A DNA stretch of 16,465 nucleotides from Methylococcaceae bacterium (GTDB taxonomy: Bacteria > Pseudomonadota > Gammaproteobacteria > Methylococcales > Methylomonadaceae), in the NCBI GenBank assembly GCA_013140465.1, contig JABFST010000342.1:1-16465 (forward strand). Reading direction: 5' to 3'. The position numbers and the translations under genes were made by a program. Position 1 is the stretch's first letter; each line of letters opens with the position of its first letter. Under the pieces are notes generated by a model that was not told the origin of the DNA, did no database searches, and saw only the letters and a list, made by a program, of their open reading frames with translations. Of this stretch, positions 3,575 to 11,738 are shown one piece after another.

Positions 3575-3595
3575 TTTCTCGCTCCCAAACTCCAG
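3575..3595. repeat. Half copy of the TTTCTCG(T)TCCCAAAC palindromic repeat
   Basis: TTTCTCGCTCCCAAACTCCA at 3575-3594 and the following G match the left end of the composite repeat at 8545 at 20 of 21 positions (T to C at 3582). The expected right half, GTTTGGGAACGAGAAA, is missing. Where it should begin, the terminal repeat AGAGACTGTGAAA of the next element starts instead. This suggests a repeat interrupted or truncated by the neighbouring element. Confidence 0.7.
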
Positions 3596-3787
3596 AGACT
3601 GTGAAAATATTTCAAATACTCACAAAAAGGTGTTTTTTATTTTCGTAAGCCTCTATTTTAAGTAGAGACTGGAGTGAAAAACATGTTTTTCACTTCGATG
3701 AGCAAGCTTACATACTCCCGACTGTAGTGAAAAAACATGTTTTTTCACTCCGATGAGCAAGCTTACGTTAATTCTTTCACAGTCTCT
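3594..3787. repeat. MITE-like element: 13-bp terminal inverted repeats around nested palindromes
   Basis: AGAGACTGTGAAA (3594-3606) and TTTCACAGTCTCT (3775-3787) are perfect inverted repeats bounding 194 bp. Inside, CGTAAGC (3644-3650) and GCTTACG (3761-3767) form a second, nested pair. Two tandem units follow: each begins GACTG(G/T)AGTGAAAA, contains a perfect palindrome (22 bp at 3673-3694, half AGTGAAAAACA; 24 bp at 3726-3749, half AGTGAAAAAACA), and ends CGATGAGCAAGCTTAC (3696-3711 and 3751-3766). The element has no coding capacity and no clear target-site duplication. Miniature inverted-repeat elements have this form, but mobility is not demonstrated. Confidence 0.5.
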
Positions 3788-3792
3788 ACCAC

Positions 3793-4389
3793 TCACCACA
3801 TCCTACGCTGGTATTTTGTTTTAGCGCAGGTTACCGCGTTAATTGCTGCAATCTTAAATTGTTTTTCTAACACTTCGATTTTGAGGTTGGCTAATTTTGG
3901 AGTACCGACACCTGCCGACAATGGATAGTCTTTTAAAACGCCCGTTTTCTGGTAGTTGCGCCTTAAATAAAAGGAGATCAGTTCCGTTCTTGATGACACC
4001 ACAACGATGACACATTTCTCTGAACCAAAATTTACACTTGCATACATTTCTGCATGAGCAAGCATTTGTTTGCCAGTACCAACCCCTTGCAGAGCTGGAC
4101 TCACTGCGAGCATCCCTAGGTGGCTATTTTTGCCCATTTTCTCGATATGAACACACGCTATAATCTCTGATGAGCTTAAACCAACAAGGATAACGGAATC
4201 TGGTTTTGACATTATTTCCGTGATTTGACTGTCATTTGTTCTGTTTCCAGAGACCAAACCTGACTCGTGAGTCCAGCCAGATGCCCCTGATGCTGGTCGA
4301 TACGCCCTATTAACAAGTTTCACTATTGCTTCGATATCCGACTTATTAGCTATTCGGTATTTATCAATGCCTGTGTGTTGGGTTTGCAT
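3793..4389 (-). CDS. GNAT-family N-acetyltransferase
   Basis: 198 residues from the ATG at 4389, five bases after the cupin stop codon; an upstream in-frame start at 4431 would overlap the cupin gene. The GNAT fold is clear: first strand YRIANKSDIEAIVKLVNRAYR (11-31), strand IIACVHIEK (76-84), LGMLAVSPALQ leading into the acetyl-CoA pyrophosphate loop QGVGTGKQ (101-108, the Q-x-x-G-x-G/A motif), then the FYLRRNYQKTG segment (140-150) common in the family's last helix and strand. GNAT enzymes move an acetyl group from acetyl-CoA to an amine; the substrate here is unknown. The fold should end near residue 178. The last 20 residues (KIAAINAVTC...RRMW) look like an unstructured extension reaching the edge of the MITE-like element. 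It is probably co-transcribed with the cupin gene. Confidence 0.85.
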   Translation of the reverse strand: MQTQHTGIDKYRIANKSDIEAIVKLVNRAYRPASGASGWTHESGLVSGNRTNDSQITEIMSKPDSVILVGLSSSEIIACVHIEKMGKNSHLGMLAVSPALQGVGTGKQMLAHAEMYASVNFGSEKCVIVVVSSRTELISFYLRRNYQKTGVLKDYPLSAGVGTPKLANLKIEVLEKQFKIAAINAVTCAKTKYQRRMW

Positions 4390-4394
4390 GGGCT

Positions 4395-4874
4395 TCAATA
4401 GGGCGAACCGTCTTTGTGTAAAAACTGCCATTCCTTCTCAACTAAGGATGCTTTTAAGTCATCGTCTGGGTATATGACCGAATCACCTGAACTGCGATCA
4501 CCGATTTCAAGATAGCTGACATCTTCATTGGTCCGATTAAGCAAATGATGCGCGTTTCCCGTCCCCGCCTTGAATCCAGCACACATGCCAGGAGAGAGTT
4601 GCGTCTCGCCTGAATCGGTAATCAGCACGGGATAACCGTGCAAAATATACACAAATTCATCTTGCGTGGAGTGGGCGTGACGTAAAGCCGATTTGGCATT
4701 CGGTAACAGCTTGGTTAAATTTACCCCAAAATTTACCAGACCAAAAAAATCACCTAGGACTCGCTTTTCACGTCCATTCATTTGTGTAGCAAACGGCTCT
4801 GGATAGAGGGATGTTTTTTGGCGAGGTACAACTTCTGTTGCCATAACAGTTACAGGAATATCTTTATTATTCAT
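4395..4874 (-). CDS. Cupin-domain protein
   Basis: 159 residues with one cupin barrel. Motif 1 is RHAHSTQDEFVYILHG (65-80), with probable metal ligands H66, H68 and E73. Motif 2 is GFKAGTGNAHHLLN (100-113), with H109 as fourth ligand. About 55 residues precede the barrel and about 30 charged residues follow it. Small single-domain cupins include isomerases, dioxygenases and ligand-binding sensors, and the sequence does not say which this is. The start is an ATG with no strong Shine-Dalgarno. The GNAT gene follows five bases after its stop, while 106 bp with a hairpin separate it from the upstream GST gene, so cupin and GNAT may form their own unit. Confidence 0.82.
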   Translation of the reverse strand: MNNKDIPVTVMATEVVPRQKTSLYPEPFATQMNGREKRVLGDFFGLVNFGVNLTKLLPNAKSALRHAHSTQDEFVYILHGYPVLITDSGETQLSPGMCAGFKAGTGNAHHLLNRTNEDVSYLEIGDRSSGDSVIYPDDDLKASLVEKEWQFLHKDGSPY

Positions 4875-4923
4875 AGCTAAAGCACACTGCGCTCAATTTC
4901 TTGTAGATAGATAGATAAAGTTT

Positions 4924-4949
4924 CTGGGGCTTTTACCCCAGCATTTTTT
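4924..4949 (+). terminator. Plus-oriented hairpin with T-run between the GST and cupin genes
   Basis: CTGGGG (4924-4929) and CCCCAG (4936-4941) form a 6-bp stem with loop CTTTTA, followed on the plus strand by CATTTTTT (to 4949). The shape is that of an intrinsic terminator reading rightward, although both flanking genes read leftward; on the minus strand no U-tract follows. A short TAGA tandem repeat (about 4903-4917) lies next to it. It may be a relic or serve antisense transcription. Confidence 0.4.
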
Positions 4950-4980
4950 CTGATGCCTACCGCGTCATCAACTTTGTGTC

Positions 4981-5682
4981 TTAGCCGATAAACAGGGTGT
5001 TAATCGCTGCGTCTTGTGGCGGCTCAAGCGAAAACTGGCGGGCGTCTGCAAAGGCGCTTACAAATGCTGGCCTCTTTGAAAGAGTTGATAAATAGCGTTG
5101 AAACACGTCGTCTTGGCAAAGACCATAGGCTCTTGCCCAAGAAACGCAGTGCCCAACAACGCAATCCGCCGCCGTAAAGACCTTGCCACAAATGTACGCT
5201 CCTGCTTCAAGCCGCTCGGCAAGCTGCGGCTCAACTTCTTTTGCAAACTTCATCCGATATCTGGCAACAGTTCGAGGATCACGCTCTCGTGTTGGAAGTA
5301 CATGCTCGTGGATGCGTATTTGCCACAGCATCATGTCCATCCAAGTCGAACCGAAGTGGAGCATCTGAAGGTAATCTGCACGCTCGAACGATGCGCTAGG
5401 TGGAGGTGCCAGGCCTTTGTCTGGATATGCGTCGGCAAGAAAACAGACCATTGCCGCGCTCTCGAGCATAGACTGGGTATTGCCGTCCTCCCAAGTCACT
5501 TCCAGCACTGGAACACTGTGGTTCGGGTTGAGTCGCAAGAACTCCTCGCTGTACTGAGTGCCTTCATAAATCTCGACTCTCGCTACCTCGAACGCATCGC
5601 CTACGACTTCGTGCAACACCCATTTTACGCGTGCGCTCCGTGTGGCGGGGTAGTGGTGAAGCTTCAGGGCTTTTATGTTCAT
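4981..5682 (-). CDS. Glutathione S-transferase family protein
   Basis: 233 residues from the ATG at 5682; a TTG two codons upstream is a less likely start. The N-terminal thioredoxin-like domain (about 4-88) has the active-site stretch YPATRSARV (11-19, with Ser/Arg rather than Cys), the cis-proline motif HSVPVLE (55-61) and the glutathione gamma-glutamyl contact ESAAM (74-78). The C-terminal helical domain (about 95-215) carries the N-capping box FTAADCVVG (169-177). The length is normal for a cytosolic GST. Such enzymes conjugate or reduce electrophilic compounds with glutathione; the substrate is unknown. It lies 77 bp downstream of the NTF2-like gene on the same strand, probably in one transcript. 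Confidence 0.87.
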   Translation of the reverse strand: MNIKALKLHHYPATRSARVKWVLHEVVGDAFEVARVEIYEGTQYSEEFLRLNPNHSVPVLEVTWEDGNTQSMLESAAMVCFLADAYPDKGLAPPPSASFERADYLQMLHFGSTWMDMMLWQIRIHEHVLPTRERDPRTVARYRMKFAKEVEPQLAERLEAGAYICGKVFTAADCVVGHCVSWARAYGLCQDDVFQRYLSTLSKRPAFVSAFADARQFSLEPPQDAAINTLFIG

Positions 5683-5759
5683 GGACAAATTTTCATCAGG
5701 TTGGTTAAGGCATAACGTTGTAGGTAAGGGGCTAACCGCAAAGCAGAGTGACCGATAGG

Positions 5760-6113
5760 TTAGAGGTAATGGGCGTATGACATGGTCACCTTACCTTCGG
5801 GATTGAAATGAAACACCTCGGCAGCAGGGCCGCTTACGCCATTGTAGTAAAGAGTAATGCTACCAACGCCAATAAGGGTGGCGAGCAGCTCAAAACGGAG
5901 ATTGGGAACTCGCTGTAGAGCCTTTGCCCAATAAGAACCGACAGCCACTTTGCCTTTCAGTACGCCGGAAAGCTCGCCAGCCACTTTAATGATGACCGGA
6001 GACGACAATTCAAAATCGTCTGTGTAATGCGCCATGATGCGCTCAAGATCGTGGGCGTTCCATGAGGCTATCCAGTCAACTGCAAAATGCTCAGCAAAAG
6101 TTTTGCTAATCAT
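5760..6113 (-). CDS. NTF2-like (SnoaL-type) superfamily protein
   Basis: 117 residues with the NTF2-like pattern: WIASWNAHDLERIMAHYTDDFELSSPV (14-40), where a helix with W/HD leads to the first strands, then alternating strands NLRFELLATLIGVGSITLYYNGV (71-93) and VFHFNPEGKV (100-109). The cone-shaped fold binds small hydrophobic ligands and serves as isomerase, cyclase, hydrolase or binding protein; no specific activity can be assigned. The ATG at 6113 has a strong AGGAG seven bases upstream. A 22-bp perfect palindrome (6133-6154) lies just ahead of the ribosome binding site. The gene heads a minus-strand group with GST, cupin and GNAT. The stop codon is embedded in CTCTAAC, discussed in the findings as a possible recombination-site core. 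Confidence 0.8.
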   Translation of the reverse strand: MISKTFAEHFAVDWIASWNAHDLERIMAHYTDDFELSSPVIIKVAGELSGVLKGKVAVGSYWAKALQRVPNLRFELLATLIGVGSITLYYNGVSGPAAEVFHFNPEGKVTMSYAHYL

Positions 6114-6132
6114 GAAATCTCCTAACGTGAAA

Positions 6133-6154
6133 TAAACGACAAATTTGTCGTTTA
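6133..6154. promoter_or_regulatory. 22-bp perfect palindrome, candidate operator of the NTF2-GST group
   Basis: The half TAAACGACAAA (6133-6143) is followed directly by its reverse complement (6144-6154). It ends 20 bp upstream of the NTF2-like start, a position where a bound repressor would block expression. Related single half-sites, TGTCGTCTA near 6168 and TTGTCGTATT near 6283, lie further upstream. A TAAAAT-like -10 candidate lies at about 6159-6165 on the minus strand, without a convincing -35. No regulator gene is in the window. Confidence 0.5.
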
Positions 6155-6475
6155 GCTATTTTAAAAATGTCGTCTAACCCAAAATTTTTGTTAAAAACGC
6201 CAGTACGGACGGGACTTCAGCGAAAGCAAACGCGACATGTCAAGCACACAAATACGGCATAAATTCGGGTGTTTAGTGATAGTTGTCGTATTATCTGGAA
6301 ACCTAGCAACGTCTCATTCGTCACAGGTAAGCTTATTTTTTCAATGGGTTAGCGGCTTGAAAAGTCACTAAAATGGGTATTTTTTCTAGTCCCTTAACTT
6401 AAGAATCAATGGTGTGCAGCATATTTTCCGCCGATTTGATTGATTTTTAGCAATACTTCCCAGTCACGCAAGCAA
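6155..6475. other. Intergenic region without a supported gene
   Basis: About 320 bp between the candidate operator and the fhcA remnant. It contains GTCTAAC at 6172-6178 (GTTAGAC on the minus strand), half-sites resembling the 6133 palindrome, and one member (6304-6318) of a direct-repeat pair shared with 10085-10099. On the minus strand a short open stretch, DCLRDWEVLLKINQIGGKYA and a few more residues, ends at a stop near 6407 and might be the tail of a decayed gene, but I do not recognise it. Confidence 0.5.
6304..6318 (+). repeat. Left copy of a short direct repeat flanking the accessory islet
   Basis: TAGCAACGTCTCATT matches TAGTAACGTCTCATT at 10085-10099 at 14 of 15 positions in the same orientation. 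The similarity continues weakly to the right (AGG, TA, CTTATT shared). Confidence 0.4.
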
Positions 6476-6652
6476 TCACCAAAGCAAAGCTTCGGCGCAG
6501 CATTTTCTCGTTCCCAAACAGAGTTTGGGAACGAGAAATTCGCCGGACGGCTTATCAACAATACGGCCATCTTGGATATAAATATCCTGTTGTTGTCCGT
6601 CTATACCGCTGGCTGGGTCGTAGACTTTAGCGCCTGTGAGTTTAATTAACAT
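6476..6652 (-). pseudogene. fhcA: Orphaned 5' fragment of formylmethanofuran dehydrogenase / Fhc subunit A
   Basis: Reading leftward from the ATG at 6652-6650, preceded by AAGGAA, the frame encodes MLIKLTGAKVYDPASGIDGQ (1-20) and then a segment ending QDGRIVDKPSGE (to 38). This is the characteristic N-terminus of the amidohydrolase-type A subunit (FwdA/FhcA), where a MLIK-x-x-G-x-x-YDP-x-x-G-x-x-G start leads into DGRIV. Homologous sequence stops at about codon 38. From 6538 the frame enters the palindromic repeat (translated FLVPKLCLGTRK), and it ends at a TGA at 6478-6476 after 58 codons. An intact A subunit is more than 500 residues, with metal-binding histidines soon after this point; none is present. 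The fragment lies on the same strand as fhcB and downstream of it, as expected for an fhcB-fhcA order, but 3.6 kb away. Confidence 0.72.
6504..6538. repeat. Minimal palindromic repeat (16+3+16) that truncates the fhcA fragment
   Basis: TTTCTCGTTCCCAAAC (6504-6519), AGA, GTTTGGGAACGAGAAA (6523-6538): perfect arms with a 3-nt loop. It is followed leftward by a second imperfect hairpin, CCAAAGC/GCTTCGG (6479-6495). The same arms end the composite repeat at 8545-8670, and a half copy is at 3575. This is a dispersed hairpin repeat of the REP/MITE type. Confidence 0.85.
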
Positions 6653-6717
6653 GGTGGTTCCTTAAAACGGGTTTTTTAATTTGGGTGGAGAAATAAGTTA
6701 AAACGCGGGGTTACGGT

Positions 6718-6978
6718 TTACTCATAATGCGTCCACATTCGATAGACCTTAACTAACATCTCGCTTTCAATCACTTCATAAACTAACCGATGCTGTTTAT
6801 TAATGCGTCGGCTCAATAACCCTTTCATGTCCCCTTTTAATAACTCGTATTCAGGTGGGTATTGCCAAGGATTTTCTTTTATGATGTTCAGCAATGTTAA
6901 TGTTTTTTCTTTTAATCCATGAGCCGATAACTTCTTAGCATCTTTTTGTGCTTGGGTCATCAATTTAAGTGTGTACAT
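6718..6978 (-). CDS. YoeB/Txe-family toxin (mRNA-interferase type)
   Basis: 86 residues from the ATG at 6978, which overlaps the antitoxin stop as TAATG; a TTG two codons upstream is a weaker start. The family signature is clear: NPWQYPPEYELLKGDMKGLLS (36-56) followed by RRINKQHRLVYEV (57-69) and C-terminal MWTHYE. Compared from memory with E. coli YoeB, E45, R64 and H84 fall at the catalytic positions E46, R65 and H83, so the toxin looks active. YoeB toxins cleave mRNA in the ribosomal A site when freed from antitoxin. It forms an operon with the gene just upstream. The pair sits in the AT-rich islet between the fhcA remnant and the K+ channel gene. Confidence 0.88.
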   Translation of the reverse strand: MYTLKLMTQAQKDAKKLSAHGLKEKTLTLLNIIKENPWQYPPEYELLKGDMKGLLSRRINKQHRLVYEVIESEMLVKVYRMWTHYE

Positions 6979-7196
6979 TACCAATCCAAACTTTCTAATG
7001 TCACACCAAGCTGTTCCGGTTCGGCTCTTGCTTCCTTAATACTGTCAACCATACCGGGTATTGTCCTTAAATACTGGTCATCACCCCCATCATCTGATTG
7101 CTCTAAAATTTGTAATTCGTCTTTTGAGAAATGCGCTAACAACCAGCAAAATTTCTCGTAAATACTATTGTCTATTTTTAGGGTGACTGTTTTCAT
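6978..7196 (-). CDS. Antitoxin of the YoeB-type toxin
   Basis: 72 residues from the ATG at 7196: MKTVTLKIDNSIYEKFCWLL, a ribbon-helix-helix-like N-terminus (strand TVTLKID, then two helices), followed by an acidic stretch EQSDDGG (about 32-38) and a toxin-binding tail GMVDSIKEARAEPEQLGVTL. The stop overlaps the toxin start by one base, the usual antitoxin-first order. An in-frame ATG at 7223, preceded by GGGAAAG at suitable spacing, would add nine residues and may be the real start. The start at 7196 was chosen because MKT(V/I)TLKI openings are typical of these antitoxins. It should neutralise the toxin and repress the operon, by analogy with the family. Confidence 0.78.
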   Translation of the reverse strand: MKTVTLKIDNSIYEKFCWLLAHFSKDELQILEQSDDGGDDQYLRTIPGMVDSIKEARAEPEQLGVTLESLDW

Positions 7197-7367
7197 TGGG
7201 GCATTAAAGTTAGTTAAAATCATGTTGAATCTTTCCCGTAGCCAAAGCGTGGTTTCGCCAATAAGCAAACGGCCATGCCTAATGCAACAACAACGCTTTA
7301 CAATGGCGGATTACCTGTCTGCGAACCAACACAGTAGCCTATGAACTGATTTTGTTTGCGTCGTAAA

Positions 7368-8408
7368 TTAACTCTGAGTTTTTCTTAAATTCCGTTTTTG
7401 ATGCTCTTGAACAGCACGGATTAGGACAGAGAAAACTTCTTCCTCTGATACAAAATCATTTTTCCTACCCTCAGTGATTGCATTAGCCAAACCCACACTT
7501 TCAAATGCTTCCGAAAAAACGTCTGGTTTATTTTTAATTAAATCAACCATGAGCTCAGCCAATAATTCTTTTGCCGTTTCACCATCATTTTTCTCTCTGT
7601 ATTCATTATCGGAAATACTACGCGACACATAAATTGTAAAAGAAACAACTATAAGTACAACGCCATTGATAACTTCATAAACGGCTAAGAATTTAGAAAA
7701 ACCAGATATTGGGTGCAAATCACCATAACCTACTGTGGCTATGGTGATGCCACTGAAATAAACGGAATCCCAAATATTGGCAATCCATTTATTACCATCA
7801 TCAAGACCACATCCATAAATTGACAAGATGAATTGCAATATTCCATATAGAAATATAAGTTCAAGATAACTAACCATCGCCAGTTTTATTCTTTCATAAA
7901 ATTTCAAGTCACTTGATTCTTTCTCCGAGTCATTTTTTGAGAAATCTAATTTGTCTCTTGCATCGCGTATAAATGCAAAAAACACCTCATTGACTCTGGA
8001 AAAAGCATAAAAGCCAATAAGATAAATACATATTACAAATGGCCACCAATCTTTAACTTTGTCTAGCTGCTCATTTGGCAATAAACACTTAAATAAAAAA
8101 AACACAGCTATAAGTAAAGTATCCCAAAAATATCTTTTATTAAATTTTCTTATGAGATTGGCTTTGTCACCTGGCCCTGGCTCAAGGGATTTTTTATAGC
8201 TAGCAAAAAGTAGTGTCCCTGATAAAAAATACACACATATTTCATACTTGCACTTTTTATCAATATGTTTTTTGAAATCACTTTTAAAAAATAAAAATAA
8301 AAAAACAAAAACAAAGTAAATGACACAGAGAACAACTGGAATCCAATTTTCCATCTTCACATTTTCAGCAATACACATTTCACATCCCATAAATTGTTCG
8401 CATCGCAA
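7368..8408 (-). CDS. Potassium channel family protein with two-TM pore module and cytosolic tail
   Basis: 346 residues from the most upstream start; ATGs at 8390, 8378 and 8354 are also possible, the last placing the first membrane segment right at the N-terminus. Hydrophobic segments lie at about 22-41, 96-110, 122-137 and 181-199, then a pore helix (211-223) with the K+ selectivity filter TVGYGD (225-230) and a final inner helix (238-262). Channels with this filter pass K+ across the inner membrane. Residues 263-346 form a charged cytosolic tail (KELLAELMVDL..., EEEVFSVLIRAVQEHQKR) with no recognised ligand-binding domain (no RCK or cNMP motif seen). The gene is markedly more AT-rich than the core genes on either side, consistent with transfer. 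It lies 266 bp downstream of the SLATT gene on the same strand, separated by a composite repeat. Confidence 0.87.
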   Translation of the reverse strand: MRCEQFMGCEMCIAENVKMENWIPVVLCVIYFVFVFLFLFFKSDFKKHIDKKCKYEICVYFLSGTLLFASYKKSLEPGPGDKANLIRKFNKRYFWDTLLIAVFFLFKCLLPNEQLDKVKDWWPFVICIYLIGFYAFSRVNEVFFAFIRDARDKLDFSKNDSEKESSDLKFYERIKLAMVSYLELIFLYGILQFILSIYGCGLDDGNKWIANIWDSVYFSGITIATVGYGDLHPISGFSKFLAVYEVINGVVLIVVSFTIYVSRSISDNEYREKNDGETAKELLAELMVDLIKNKPDVFSEAFESVGLANAITEGRKNDFVSEEEVFSVLIRAVQEHQKRNLRKTQS

Positions 8409-8544: not shown

Positions 8545-8670
8545 TTTCTCGTTCCCAAACTCCAGTTTGGGAATGCCTATGACCAAGCTCTGCTTGGTGT
8601 GTTGGTTTTGTGCAGACTTCAAGCAGAGCTTGAAGGTAGGCATTCCCAAACAGAGTTTGGGAACGAGAAA
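8545..8670. repeat. Composite hairpin repeat with 18-bp perfect terminal inverted repeats
   Basis: TTFs: the ends TTTCTCGTTCCCAAACTC (8545-8562) and GAGTTTGGGAACGAGAAA (8653-8670) are perfect inverted repeats. The similarity continues inward to about 35 bp (GTTTGGGAATGCCTA and its complement) with one small indel, so each end can also fold on itself. Two internal hairpins follow: CCAAGC-TCT-GCTTGG (8583-8597) and CTTCAAGC-AGA-GCTTGAAG (8617-8635). The total of 126 bp has no gene; an open frame across it reads VPKLCLG, the translation of the repeat. It is the full-length relative of the copies at 6504-6538 and 3575-3595. It lies between the SLATT and K+ channel genes. Confidence 0.85.
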
Positions 8671-8674
8671 TGAT

Positions 8675-9394
8675 TTATTTAGATTCACAAGGTAAAAGAG
8701 GATCTCCTCCTAAAAACGATGGCATTACATGTGATATGCCAAGCAAATCTAAAATAAAAACAAATTCAGCAATTATCATGAGTGTTGGGAGGATAAAAGG
8801 AATAATATAGAGGCAACATGCTTTCAATTTGTAATAAGCCCGTTTCAATCCCGTTATCTTATAATCCTCCGGCATTTCAAGAATTGATAAAAGATAATCC
8901 AGCCTGCTATGATTTTCAGACTCATTTAAAGCCTCTTTATAATCTTCGTGATATTTGGTAAGGTCAAGCACGTTAGAACTACTTTGGGCCTTATGTTGTT
9001 CATCACGAAGTTGGCGAATTAAGTCTTTTACTTTATCCCCACATTCATTCAAAGCTAATGAACGAACATCATAACGTGCCGTACCATTTATAACAGAATA
9101 TACTAAAATAGCGACAGCTAAAAATATTTGCATCATATTCAATACCTTAGAAATAAAATGCAGAGGCACGTCGGAATTTTGAATAAGCGGAATAAAGATA
9201 ATACCAAGCGATAAAAATGTTGTAGTAAAAAAAGAATATTTACTAATAACATTGATACGAGATGAAGCATTAAACCTACATCTTGATGTCATTCGCATAC
9301 TATTCATTAATTTTTTAACTGGATCGGGTTCATATTGCTCAATAGGATATAAACTAAATAACCAAAAAATACTATTTTTAAAAGTTAAACTCAT
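8675..9394 (-). CDS. SLATT-domain membrane protein (predicted defence effector)
   Basis: 239 residues from the ATG at 9394, with GTAAGGCGGG upstream as ribosome binding site. The layout matches the SLATT (SMODS- and SLOG-associating two-TM effector) superfamily: a basic helix TSRCRFNASSRI (36-47), two membrane helices (about 54-72 and 85-103), then a long amphipathic helix DVRSLALNECGDKVKDLIRQ and following residues (109-133). NESENHSRLDY (157-167) resembles the conserved N-H...D-Y segment. A third hydrophobic stretch (195-219) and a short tail end the protein. It looks closest to SLATT family 5, judged from memory. SLATT proteins are predicted pore-forming effectors found beside nucleotidyltransferases, SLOG sensors or reverse transcriptases. 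None of those is in the window, so the sensor, if any, is unusual or distant. The Uma2-like gene ends 18 bp upstream, so the two are probably co-transcribed. Confidence 0.75.
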   Translation of the reverse strand: MSLTFKNSIFWLFSLYPIEQYEPDPVKKLMNSMRMTSRCRFNASSRINVISKYSFFTTTFLSLGIIFIPLIQNSDVPLHFISKVLNMMQIFLAVAILVYSVINGTARYDVRSLALNECGDKVKDLIRQLRDEQHKAQSSSNVLDLTKYHEDYKEALNESENHSRLDYLLSILEMPEDYKITGLKRAYYKLKACCLYIIPFILPTLMIIAEFVFILDLLGISHVMPSFLGGDPLLPCESK

Positions 9395-9412: not shown

Positions 9413-10030
9413 TTAATCTTCCGCCCAAGTATCAAATATCTCATTCACACTCATTGCCAGTTCGGGGAATAAATGTGGTATCACCGTATCATCATTGGTG
9501 TACATGGCTTGCAATTCATATTTTTGCTCGGCATTCAATACGAATTGCTGGATGGTTTGATGACTTGGAAACACTAGCCAATATTCGATCACGCCACTTT
9601 CTTGGTAAAGCTCATATTTAGTATGGATTTCCCGTTTAGAATTCCCTTTAGAGAGTATTTCAATAATCCAATCAGGTGCGCCGTTGCAGCCTTGTTGATC
9701 GAGCTTTTCTTCTGGTTGGCAAATAACGCAAATGTCCGGCTGGACTACGGTATGTATCTGTTCGTTTTTTAAAAGCGATTTTTTGCGGTCATAAAGCCTG
9801 ACATCAAACGGCGCGGCGTAAACGCGGCATTTTTTATGTTTGAAATAGACCAATAAATTACGCATTAAGTTACTGGATATGTCCTGATGCTTAACATTAG
9901 GTGCGGGCGACATCAGCGTGATTTTGCCTTTGATGAGTTCCACAGCTTCTTTAAGCTGCCAAGTCAAATAATCGGCGTAGCTATAGGTTTGGTTTAAATC
10001 CAACTGGTCGAGATGAAGTATCTTGGACAT
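9413..10030 (-). CDS. Uma2-family protein (PD-(D/E)XK nuclease fold, DUF820)
   Basis: 205 residues with the Uma2 layout: N-terminal MSKILHLDQLDLNQTYSYADYL, EAVELIKGKITLMSPAP (28-44), HQDISSNLMRNLLVYF (48-63), then VVQPDICVI (95-103) and APDWIIEILSKGNSKRE (118-134), which supply the acidic residues (D99, D120, E124) and following Lys/Arg of a PD-(D/E)XK site. GVIEYWLVFP (146-155) is the other conserved stretch. Uma2 proteins are numerous in cyanobacteria and gammaproteobacterial methanotrophs, and their biological role is unproven. The ATG lies at 10030 in an AT-rich leader. The gene heads a probable unit with the SLATT gene. Confidence 0.85.
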   Translation of the reverse strand: MSKILHLDQLDLNQTYSYADYLTWQLKEAVELIKGKITLMSPAPNVKHQDISSNLMRNLLVYFKHKKCRVYAAPFDVRLYDRKKSLLKNEQIHTVVQPDICVICQPEEKLDQQGCNGAPDWIIEILSKGNSKREIHTKYELYQESGVIEYWLVFPSHQTIQQFVLNAEQKYELQAMYTNDDTVIPHLFPELAMSVNEIFDTWAED

Positions 10031-10099: not shown

Positions 10100-10118
10100 G
10101 CTTGTAGGGTACTTATTC

Positions 10119-10199
10119 ACCTCCCCCTTGAAAAGGGGGGATTGAGGGGGGTTATTCAATAAAACCTCCCCTAACCCCTCCTTTTTAGGAGGGGGACTG
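10119..10199. repeat. C-rich/G-rich imperfect inverted repeat
   Basis: Two arms of about 40 bp (10117-10157 and 10160-10200) are imperfect reverse complements. Each contains its own hairpin: CCCCCTT-GAA-AAGGGGG (10123-10139) and CCCCTCCT-TTTT-AGGAGGGG (10175-10194). It is noncoding. It resembles a C5TTGAAAAGGGGG-type dispersed repeat seen in various bacteria (from memory). Confidence 0.65.
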
Positions 10200-10226
10200 A
10201 ATGTTTACCTTGTAGGCAATCGCGGC

Positions 10227-10259
10227 AGACCTGCGAGGTTTTATAAACCTCGCAGGTCT
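10227..10259. terminator. 15-bp perfect hairpin downstream of fhcB
   Basis: AGACCTGCGAGGTTT (10227-10241), TAT, AAACCTCGCAGGTCT (10245-10259). It lies 29 bp beyond the fhcB stop, where a terminator or mRNA 3'-end stabiliser would be. The minus strand has no U-tract after it; the plus strand has TTTAT. The sequence is also reminiscent of a dispersed GACCTGCGAGGT repeat, so its function is uncertain. Confidence 0.55.
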
Positions 10260-10287
10260 TTATCGCGCCACTCATGAGTAGCCCAAC

Positions 10288-11547
10288 TTACAGCGCCTGC
10301 TCTATCGCGTTTAACACGTCAGCCGTACTAGGCAATCCGGCATCACGCAATTTTTTTAGGCGGATGGCAACGACGTTGTCCATACGGTAGGCGTGGCCCG
10401 CATGATCGATGCCGGGTGTGCCTACGGGGATGAACACGTCGGGTTCTTTGCTAAAGGTCATGCCGGAACGCCCGACCACTATCGTCGGCAAGTCGGTGAC
10501 AGGCGGTGTAGCGTTGGTGTTGAAGGCGTGTACCCACACTAAGGCATCGGCTTCGCCATCGGCAATCAGCTGCTTGCTGTCGTTTAAAAACGGGTCGTAT
10601 TCTGGGTAGCCACGGCTAAAGCGAGTGCGTGCCGGATAGCCTGTGGTCCAGCCGCATACTTGGTTGGCGGTTTGGTCGCCTTCTTTGCCAGCTAAGGGCA
10701 AACCAGAGCAGCGGGTGTTTTTGTCGTTGATGTCTTTAATCATTTCTGACAGGGTTTGTACGGTCAATTCGGCTTGGGGGTAAGCCAACGCACCTGCCGC
10801 CCAGGTGACGACACCGTAGCGGGCGGCTTTAAGCTGTTCGGCGAGTGCCAACAAATCTGCTACGGCGATGCCACAGACTATGCTTGCGCGTATTGGTTGG
10901 CCTTTGACCAAGGCGCGTAACACCGCGACAACGTCGGGCAAATCTTCGGTGGCGCAGGGCAAAACTTGGGCTTGTTTGCCGTTAGGCGAAGTGGACGCTG
11001 CACCTGATGGGGCTTTGCCTAAATACACGACGCTGCGTAAACTGGTGTCGGCAACAAACATGGATCCTGGATTCCAGATATACCGTTCAAAAAAGCGTGG
11101 GGCGAAAGCTTCTAAATCCGTACCGACTACCACTAATAAATCACAGCGGTTTTTGACTTCCGCTAAGGTGGTGTTCATCCAGCCGGAATCTTGCAAGGCC
11201 AAGAAGTTATTGCGTGCGCCTGTAAAATTGATGTTGTCCACGACCGCACCGCTACGGTCTGCCAAGGCCAATAAACCGCGCATACCATTCACGTCGGTGG
11301 CACAGCCGCCAATCACGGGCAGGTGGGTGTCTTTTAACAGCGCGGCAGCGGCGGCCACGGCTTCGGCTAAACTGGCGGGTTTGCCCTGCACGCGTGGCTG
11401 GGTATCGGTTACGGCTTGTTCAAACAGCGGTGTATTGACCGCACAGCCATTTTCTAGCACTTTTAGGGTTGTGCCTTCGACCCTGATGGTTAGGTCATCC
11501 GTGCCTATGCCACAAAAAGGACTTGGTACTTCAGTTATGTCAGTCAT
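10288..11547 (-). CDS. fhcB: Formyltransferase/hydrolase complex subunit B (formylmethanofuran dehydrogenase subunit B homologue)
   Basis: 419 residues, full length for the bacterial B subunit. Recognisable segments are PFCGIGTDDLTI (10-21), which keeps one cysteine of the archaeal metal-site motif, PVIGGCATDVNGMRGLLALA (77-96), CGWTTGYPARTRFSRGYPEYDP (298-319) and the C-terminal PVGTPGIDHAGHAYRMDNVV (374-393). The Fhc complex (FhcABCD) takes formyl groups from formyl-tetrahydromethanopterin and releases formate in the C1 oxidation pathway of methylotrophs. In bacteria the B subunit has no dehydrogenase role and appears structural. The ATG is preceded by AAGGTAG. fhcA would be expected directly downstream, but here the next genes are an accessory islet and only an fhcA remnant remains at 6652. 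A palindrome, GGCTAGGCCCTAGCC (11582-11596), lies 35 bp upstream. Confidence 0.92.
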   Translation of the reverse strand: MTDITEVPSPFCGIGTDDLTIRVEGTTLKVLENGCAVNTPLFEQAVTDTQPRVQGKPASLAEAVAAAAALLKDTHLPVIGGCATDVNGMRGLLALADRSGAVVDNINFTGARNNFLALQDSGWMNTTLAEVKNRCDLLVVVGTDLEAFAPRFFERYIWNPGSMFVADTSLRSVVYLGKAPSGAASTSPNGKQAQVLPCATEDLPDVVAVLRALVKGQPIRASIVCGIAVADLLALAEQLKAARYGVVTWAAGALAYPQAELTVQTLSEMIKDINDKNTRCSGLPLAGKEGDQTANQVCGWTTGYPARTRFSRGYPEYDPFLNDSKQLIADGEADALVWVHAFNTNATPPVTDLPTIVVGRSGMTFSKEPDVFIPVGTPGIDHAGHAYRMDNVVAIRLKKLRDAGLPSTADVLNAIEQAL

Positions 11548-11581
11548 TCAGCTACCTTTGGGTTTTAAGTAAAGTGGTCAA

Positions 11582-11596
11582 GGCTAGGCCCTAGCC
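11582..11596. promoter_or_regulatory. 15-bp palindrome upstream of fhcB, possible operator
   Basis: GGCTAGG-C-CCTAGCC is a perfect inverted repeat whose near end lies 35 bp upstream of the fhcB ATG on the minus strand. With a one-base centre it is more likely a protein site than an RNA hairpin. No clear -35/-10 pair could be placed around it. Confidence 0.3.
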
Positions 11597-11738
11597 AGCC
11601 CTGATGGTGGCATTATTCTAACCCTAATTTTGTAGGCTGTCGCTGTAATCGCCCGTCTTTAGTGGCGGCTACTGTGGATGCGTTTGGGATAAATAAACGG
11701 CAGTATAGGCCGTATTGGGAGGATGTTGCTGGGGATGG

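Follow-up and report, generated by a model that had tools for sequence, protein, structure and literature searches.

What became of fhcA in this genome is the question raised by a 16,465-nucleotide contig of a Methylococcaceae bacterium (JABFST010000342.1, assembly GCA_013140465.1), the whole of which we call the window; we label the contig C102 and the genome G000. The A subunit is the hydrolase part of the Fhc complex. PMC8141765 describes this complex as producing formate from formyl-H4MPT with bound methylofuran. A first-pass annotation of the window had recognized only the 5' end of fhcA, on the strand and side expected of an fhcB-fhcA operon, and offered two outcomes, namely that an intact fhcA lies elsewhere or that the lineage has lost or replaced it.

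We show that the stub is the beginning of fhcA. It occupies 6536-6652 on the minus strand and comprises 38 codons plus a codon 39 (TTT) that it has in common with an adjoining palindromic repeat. Residues 3-37 of its translation match positions 2-36 of TIGR03121, the profile of formylmethanofuran dehydrogenase subunit A (E = 6.8e-9, whole NCBIfam library searched); the N-terminal sequence of the family is thus present, at 34.5 bits against a full-length curated cut-off of 392.75 bits, which is not reached. At the DNA level, 6536-6687 is identical, ungapped, at 140 of 152 positions to the start of a complete fhcA carried by another contig of the genome, C284 (E = 3.4e-58 when the whole genome was searched with the stub), and at 143 of 149 to the fhcA of the nearest relative, a MAG from Lake Pavin (G002). 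Homology begins 35 bp upstream of the ATG and stops at codon 38 or 39, taking in a leader with an RBS-like AAGGA (6653-6687, minus strand), of which 35 bp are common to the C284 gene and 32 bp to that of G002. The alignment to FhcA N-termini proposed by the first-pass annotation therefore upholds its reading of 38 codons with their leader. In the 58-residue read-through frame that it reported (6476-6652, minus strand), only 6536-6652 is fhcA, and the final 19-20 codons are repeat and flanking sequence. A tblastn search of the window with full-length FhcA returned nothing else better than E = 2.3.

The partner gene, fhcB, is intact at 10288-11547 (minus strand) and is the sole match in the genome above the TIGR03129 cut-off (353 bits; cut-off, 327.8). 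From its stop to the ATG of the stub we count 3635 bp, in agreement with the 3.6 kb of accessory DNA noted earlier. Thus, fhcA does not stand directly 3' of fhcB; order and strand are kept, the distance is large and the gene is truncated. The window has no fhcD or fhcC behind it; the end of contig C400 carries fhcD together with the start of fhcC. To place this arrangement, we surveyed fhcB neighbourhoods in relatives, drawing on public genomes and taking the best 80 of the 146 fhcB loci confirmed in them. In 75 of these 80, fhcA follows fhcB in the same orientation; of the remaining five, two are cut short by a contig end within 1.1 kb and three continue for 10 kb with no fhcA. The latter are L102, L132 and L151 (L-numbers denote loci of relatives), L102 and L132 being sisters in the FhcB tree. 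Between fhcB and fhcA lie no more than 119 bp in 61 of these 75 loci and 400 bp or more in 14. We found fhcD after fhcA, on the same strand, in 57 of the 75, the two being 400 bp or more apart in 22 of these 57 measured loci; fhcD was not found in the other 18, six of which have at least 3 kb of sequence behind fhcA. Taken together, the conserved order and the wide gaps indicate that the stub stands where fhcA belongs and that operon break-up is not unique to G000. The window therefore resembles the Methylococcaceae fhcB-fhcA-fhcD-fhcC operon in having an intact fhcB with the fhcA leader and 5' end downstream on the same strand, and departs from it in that only a stub is present here, that 3.6 kb of accessory genes and repeats intervene, and that fhcB, fhcA and fhcDC of G000 lie on three different contigs. 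A 3' fhcA fragment was seen at L154:12824-13075 (residues 466-549, 75% identical), a locus that also has an intact fhcA. Our literature search, by title or the start of the abstract, found no work on fhc operon break-up, which is no proof of its absence.

With most of the reading frame lost and an intact homologue present in the genome, the stub has the make-up of a pseudogene. Because nearly all of the protein is missing, it cannot carry out the FhcA reaction, and we infer that it is a non-functional 5' relic at the ancestral operon position of the gene. It is highly improbable that the fragment is instead a functional leader peptide or regulatory element tied to fhcB or to toxin-antitoxin genes. 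In favor of such a role, it retains a start codon preceded by an RBS-like leader, and its frame stays open for 58 codons. Against it, the tail of that frame is encoded by a repeat, and the islet genes on this strand lie upstream of the stub. An Rfam scan of the whole window gave no family at or above its gathering score, and in the best 80 of 146 loci the only detached 5' fhcA pieces were genes truncated by a contig end.

The stub runs into a perfect 16+3+16 palindrome at 6504-6538, the end of which coincides with the TTT of codon 39. While this junction is as the first-pass annotation described it, its view that the palindrome had cut the gene does not hold in that form. The palindrome is the short form of a dispersed repeat family, and G002, too, has such a palindrome, 41 bp ahead of its fhcA leader; the palindrome of the window therefore marks the junction and need not have cut fhcA. 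Its 12-nucleotide arm, TCGTTCCCAAAC, has 26 matches in G000, each perfect palindrome being counted twice. The exact full palindrome occurs once in the genome, and BLAST returned further family matches, many of them within a longer composite form such as that at 8545-8671; the family is thus a dispersed one with many copies in the genome. Among the best 80 of 146 loci, the exact arm was found at the locus of G002 only. The palindromic repeats of this genome may be of the REP/MITE kind, which they resemble in their short, near-perfect inverted repeats, their tens of matches and their short and composite forms. A simple insertion of the palindrome into fhcA is ruled out, as no fhcA sequence follows it in the window. 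A repeat-associated deletion would be a plausible cause of the truncation.

Further repeats surround the locus. The stretch downstream of the palindrome (6401-6453) is 85% identical to part of contig C277, and an overlapping stretch is 83% identical to part of C317. Positions 3595-3788 and C284:2047-2237 hold the same repeat, with dozens of matches across G000 contigs. Between fhcB and the next gene, one repeat (10108-10208) is missing at this point in G002 and found elsewhere in that genome; its neighbour (10210-10281) has at least 85 matches in G000, at least 77 in G002 and at least 32 in a further relative, G022 (those listed being short), and since both strands were counted, copy numbers are lower than these counts. 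Among the matches listed for this neighbour, two are in G012, one is in G007 and none is in the other five of the ten genomes.

Is FhcA lost, then? The genome search shows that it is not, which settles the two outcomes in favor of the first and against loss or replacement. G000 contains one complete fhcA, on C284, with 551 codons and no internal stops, scoring 775.7 bits with TIGR03121 (cut-off, 392.75); its protein aligns across residues 1-539 with chain A (FhcA) of structure 6s6y. Compared with the G002 gene, it has 69 synonymous and 6 nonsynonymous codon differences, as expected under purifying selection. We propose that FhcA would be made from this gene. At 42 bp downstream begins a gene for an AAA ATPase, followed by a DUF3226 gene, a pair that corresponds to the PADLOC defence candidate PDC-M38A/B. 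Upstream of fhcA, the sequence from about 0.5 kb before the gene to the contig end shares 99% identity with the end of contig C74. We had presumed the contig end to be the end of a 5S rRNA gene; an Rfam search of C284:9300-9836 gave nothing at E 0.01, and this is only a lead.

A second, divergent fhcA type, 51-52% identical to the main FhcA in G000, is represented in this genome by decayed pieces on C474 (719-1711) and C402. In a relative, G018, this type lies amid three CobW-domain genes, presumably of the COG0523 type, a ZIP transporter gene and a DUF1826 gene (L214:1790-9433). An exact match, TGTTATATTATAACA, to the consensus that we assumed for a Zur-type box is found at L214:1803, near the start of the first gene of this cluster; in the box search of L214, 53 of 200 shuffles gave as many matches at up to three mismatches, a count in which exact matches were not separated. 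Near the second fhcA paralogue of G018 (L215), the one match, with three mismatches, was no better than chance. The second type looks like a spare FhcA for low zinc, of which G000 keeps decayed pieces only. A literature search on such a spare FhcA yielded nothing beyond a selenium review.

The islet that separates fhcB from the stub consists of accessory genes, all on the minus strand, in which direction the order is fhcB, two repeats, Uma2, SLATT_5, the composite repeat, ion channel, short ORF, yoeB, stub and palindrome. The Uma2-family gene (9413-10030; PF05685, 2.2e-32) is the PADLOC candidate PDC-S03 (3e-51). It is followed by genes for a SLATT_5 two-TM effector-like protein (8675-9394; PF18160, 3.5e-36; PADLOC RTasSLATT, 2.5e-28) and an Ion_trans_2 channel-like protein (7368-8408; PF07885, 3.5e-12). 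A YoeB/Txe-family toxin gene (6718-6984; TIGR02116, 84.5 bits, cut-off 51.8) ends 30 bp upstream of the stub leader and is overlapped by a short ORF (6978-7211, start uncertain), which by its position may encode the antitoxin and had no family match in the profile searches. Beyond the stub, the minus strand of 3793-6113 carries a row of GNAT acetyltransferase, cupin, GST and SnoaL-like genes. This row has no relative among the best 80 of 146 fhcB loci and four G002 stretches; a stretch elsewhere in G012 matches its SnoaL gene at 71% in DNA.

The fhc locus of G002 (same sequence as JAPLRR010000030.1) has the order fhcB, Uma2, an ORF of 91 codons, palindrome and fhcA. It is like the window in its fhcB-Uma2-fhcA order, in a DNA identity of 90-96% over the common pieces (90-91% for Uma2, at the same position) and in the same palindrome family near fhcA. 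In contrast, its fhcA is complete, and the 91-aa ORF takes the place of the SLATT, ion-channel and YoeB genes, which have no match in that locus. No fhcD was found behind fhcA there. The homology continues upstream of fhcB (11548-11648, minus strand) and stops at 11648, before the ftsZ operon, which adjoins the fhc block in the window and lies on another contig in G002. Outside the block, 6121-6291 (171 bp) is 84% like G002, and the other gene-length stretches of C102 and C284 are 68-81% identical to G002 in DNA, with repeats higher.

This contrast is pronounced at third codon positions, where identity between G000 and G002 is 86.2% for fhcB and 87.8% for fhcA, against 50.5% for ftsA and 57.4% for ftsZ. 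The fhc/fts ratio of third-position divergence is 0.28, the lowest of 136 genus pairs (17 genomes with all data; median, 0.97), followed by three other genus pairs at 0.46-0.53. Because the fhc block is far more alike than ftsA and ftsZ, we infer that fhcB-Uma2-fhcA was probably exchanged between the G000 and G002 lineages after their split. The ftsA+ftsZ, fhcB and fhcA trees all join G000 with G002, and we therefore dropped topology as evidence, so that the claim depends on how unequally the genes have diverged. This contrast can also be read in ways other than exchange, given the other low-ratio pairs, the agreeing trees and the longer fts branch of G000 (0.24 vs 0.14 in G002); the fhcB branches are 0.057 and 0.007, respectively. 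The match counts for the repeat at 10210-10281 do not decide a direction of transfer. A quick FhcB tree placed the pair outside a 31-row set holding the other genus members. However, a tree constrained to keep these rows and the pair together scored better (p-AU = 0.77), and we do not claim an origin outside the genus.

The same contrast could arise if the contig or the bin joined DNA of a G002-like strain with the host genome, fhcB-Uma2 and fhcA being far more G002-like than their flanks. The assembly (3.6 Mb in 507 contigs, 83% complete, 2.5% contamination) would allow for such an artefact or strain mixture, which we nevertheless regard as very unlikely. Both C102 (in pieces of 121 and 68 bp) and C284 carry the repeat that other G000 contigs match dozens of times; among the matches listed for six relatives to its core (C284:2086-2230), only one is above 100 bp, in G020. 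Native-like segments flank the block on both sides on C102. Furthermore, no repeat match was present around 11648 among those listed for five relatives, nor at the 3' end of the C284 fhcA among those listed there.

Starting from the stub, the intact copy, the gene order of relatives and the identity contrast, we consider the following history likely. The family operon would have been fhcB-fhcA-fhcD-fhcC, into which accessory genes including Uma2 would have entered between fhcB and fhcA, with fhcDC becoming detached. The fhcB-Uma2-fhcA block would then have been swapped, in either direction, with a G002-like lineage, and in G000 would have come to lie beside the ftsZ operon. A complete fhcA with its 35-bp leader may next have come to sit elsewhere, beside the two-gene defence candidate. 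The old copy, now redundant, would finally have been cut at codon 38-39 at the repeat junction and its remainder lost, with more accessory genes entering upstream. Against this history, no intermediate with a full old copy is known among the relatives compared, and the stretch 6121-6291, outside the block, is G002-like as well.

The scar announced by the first-pass annotation is real, and it is datable only in relative and rough terms, with no absolute date. In 149 sites, stub and C284 differ at 12, G002 and C284 at 8, and stub and G002 at 6; these near-equal distances imply that the three lines parted at roughly the same point, close to when the block itself separated. Up to codon 39, private changes fall in codons 13, 30, 32, 35 and 38 of the stub and 11, 18, 19 and 28 of C284, and in none of G002. 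Two of the five stub changes alter the amino acid, too few to show relaxed selection. Since the stub is closer to the G002 gene than to the C284 copy, a late copy within the genome is not directly supported, and a star-like early duplication fits.

It is also conceivable, though we think it unlikely, that the stub was never whole, and that the entry of a cassette at the start of fhcA duplicated the 5' part of the gene, leaving stub, insert and complete fhcA in a row until the gene moved away. At four of the 14 wide-gap loci (L128, L129, L150 and L178), the fhcA leader is duplicated at the beginning of the inserted cassette (a 44-bp repeat at 89% in L129; about 18 bp, by eye, in the others), as if insertion had copied the ribosome binding site, and the leader homology of stub, C284 and G002 starts at nearly the same point (-32 to -35). 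Yet these duplications hold the leader and start-codon region rather than 39 codons, the remaining ten of the 14 loci (from the best 80 of 146) have no second leader, the 6.5 kb of contig left beyond the stub contain no complete fhcA, and the C284 copy is not the one nearest in sequence to the stub.

The stub is well documented but ordinary pseudogene debris, and repeated invasion of the operon is the better story. Among the best 80 of 146 loci, split fhcB/fhcA junctions (at least 400 bp; 14 of 75) often hold Uma2 or toxin-antitoxin-type genes. The first inserted gene of L128 matches MazE_antitoxin, L129 and L178 hold PIN-domain genes just under the Pfam cut-off, and the L150 gene falls by clustering in the same sequence cluster as the latter two. 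The YoeB, PIN/MazE-like, Uma2 and SLATT genes at this junction resemble toxin-antitoxin and defence-candidate genes inserted into operons. A hot spot limited to the fhcB/fhcA junction is not supported, since the fhcA-fhcD junction is often wide as well, which suggests that the whole operon is open to insertion.

In the window, as in eight of these 80 loci (L101, L106, L123, L129, L131, L142, L147 and L163), a co-directional Uma2 gene separates fhcB from fhcA; in L129 it is split into two overlapping pieces. AU tests showed that the Uma2 data reject the fhcA grouping (p-AU = 0.0019) and that the Uma2 grouping is rejected by the fhcA (9.4e-7) and fhcB data (0.0032), p-values that are optimistic because the groups were named after the trees were seen. 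At third positions, Uma2 is the more similar gene in 35 of 36 pairs when compared with fhcB and in 28 of 36 when compared with fhcA. The fhcA and fhcB trees disagree over L131 and L142, with less support than the Uma2 conflict, so Uma2 is not the sole gene in conflict and recombination is not confined to it. We tentatively suggest, without rating it as the likelier case, that the fhcB/fhcA junction is a recurrent entry site for mobile defence and toxin-antitoxin cassettes, and that the junction Uma2 may move between species independently of the fhc genes, splitting the operon and leaving stubs, after which the fhc block would travel between lineages with its passenger.

The fragmentation pattern around the stub raises its interest somewhat above that of the stub alone and can be tested with long-read Methylococcales genomes. 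A truncated core gene beside its partner is no safe sign of pathway loss, FhcA being intact elsewhere here. The scar shows a core gene cluster disrupted by accessory genes and repeats, and the locus provides a concrete case of a conserved methanotroph operon that has been broken up, probably exchanged between lineages, and repeatedly invaded.
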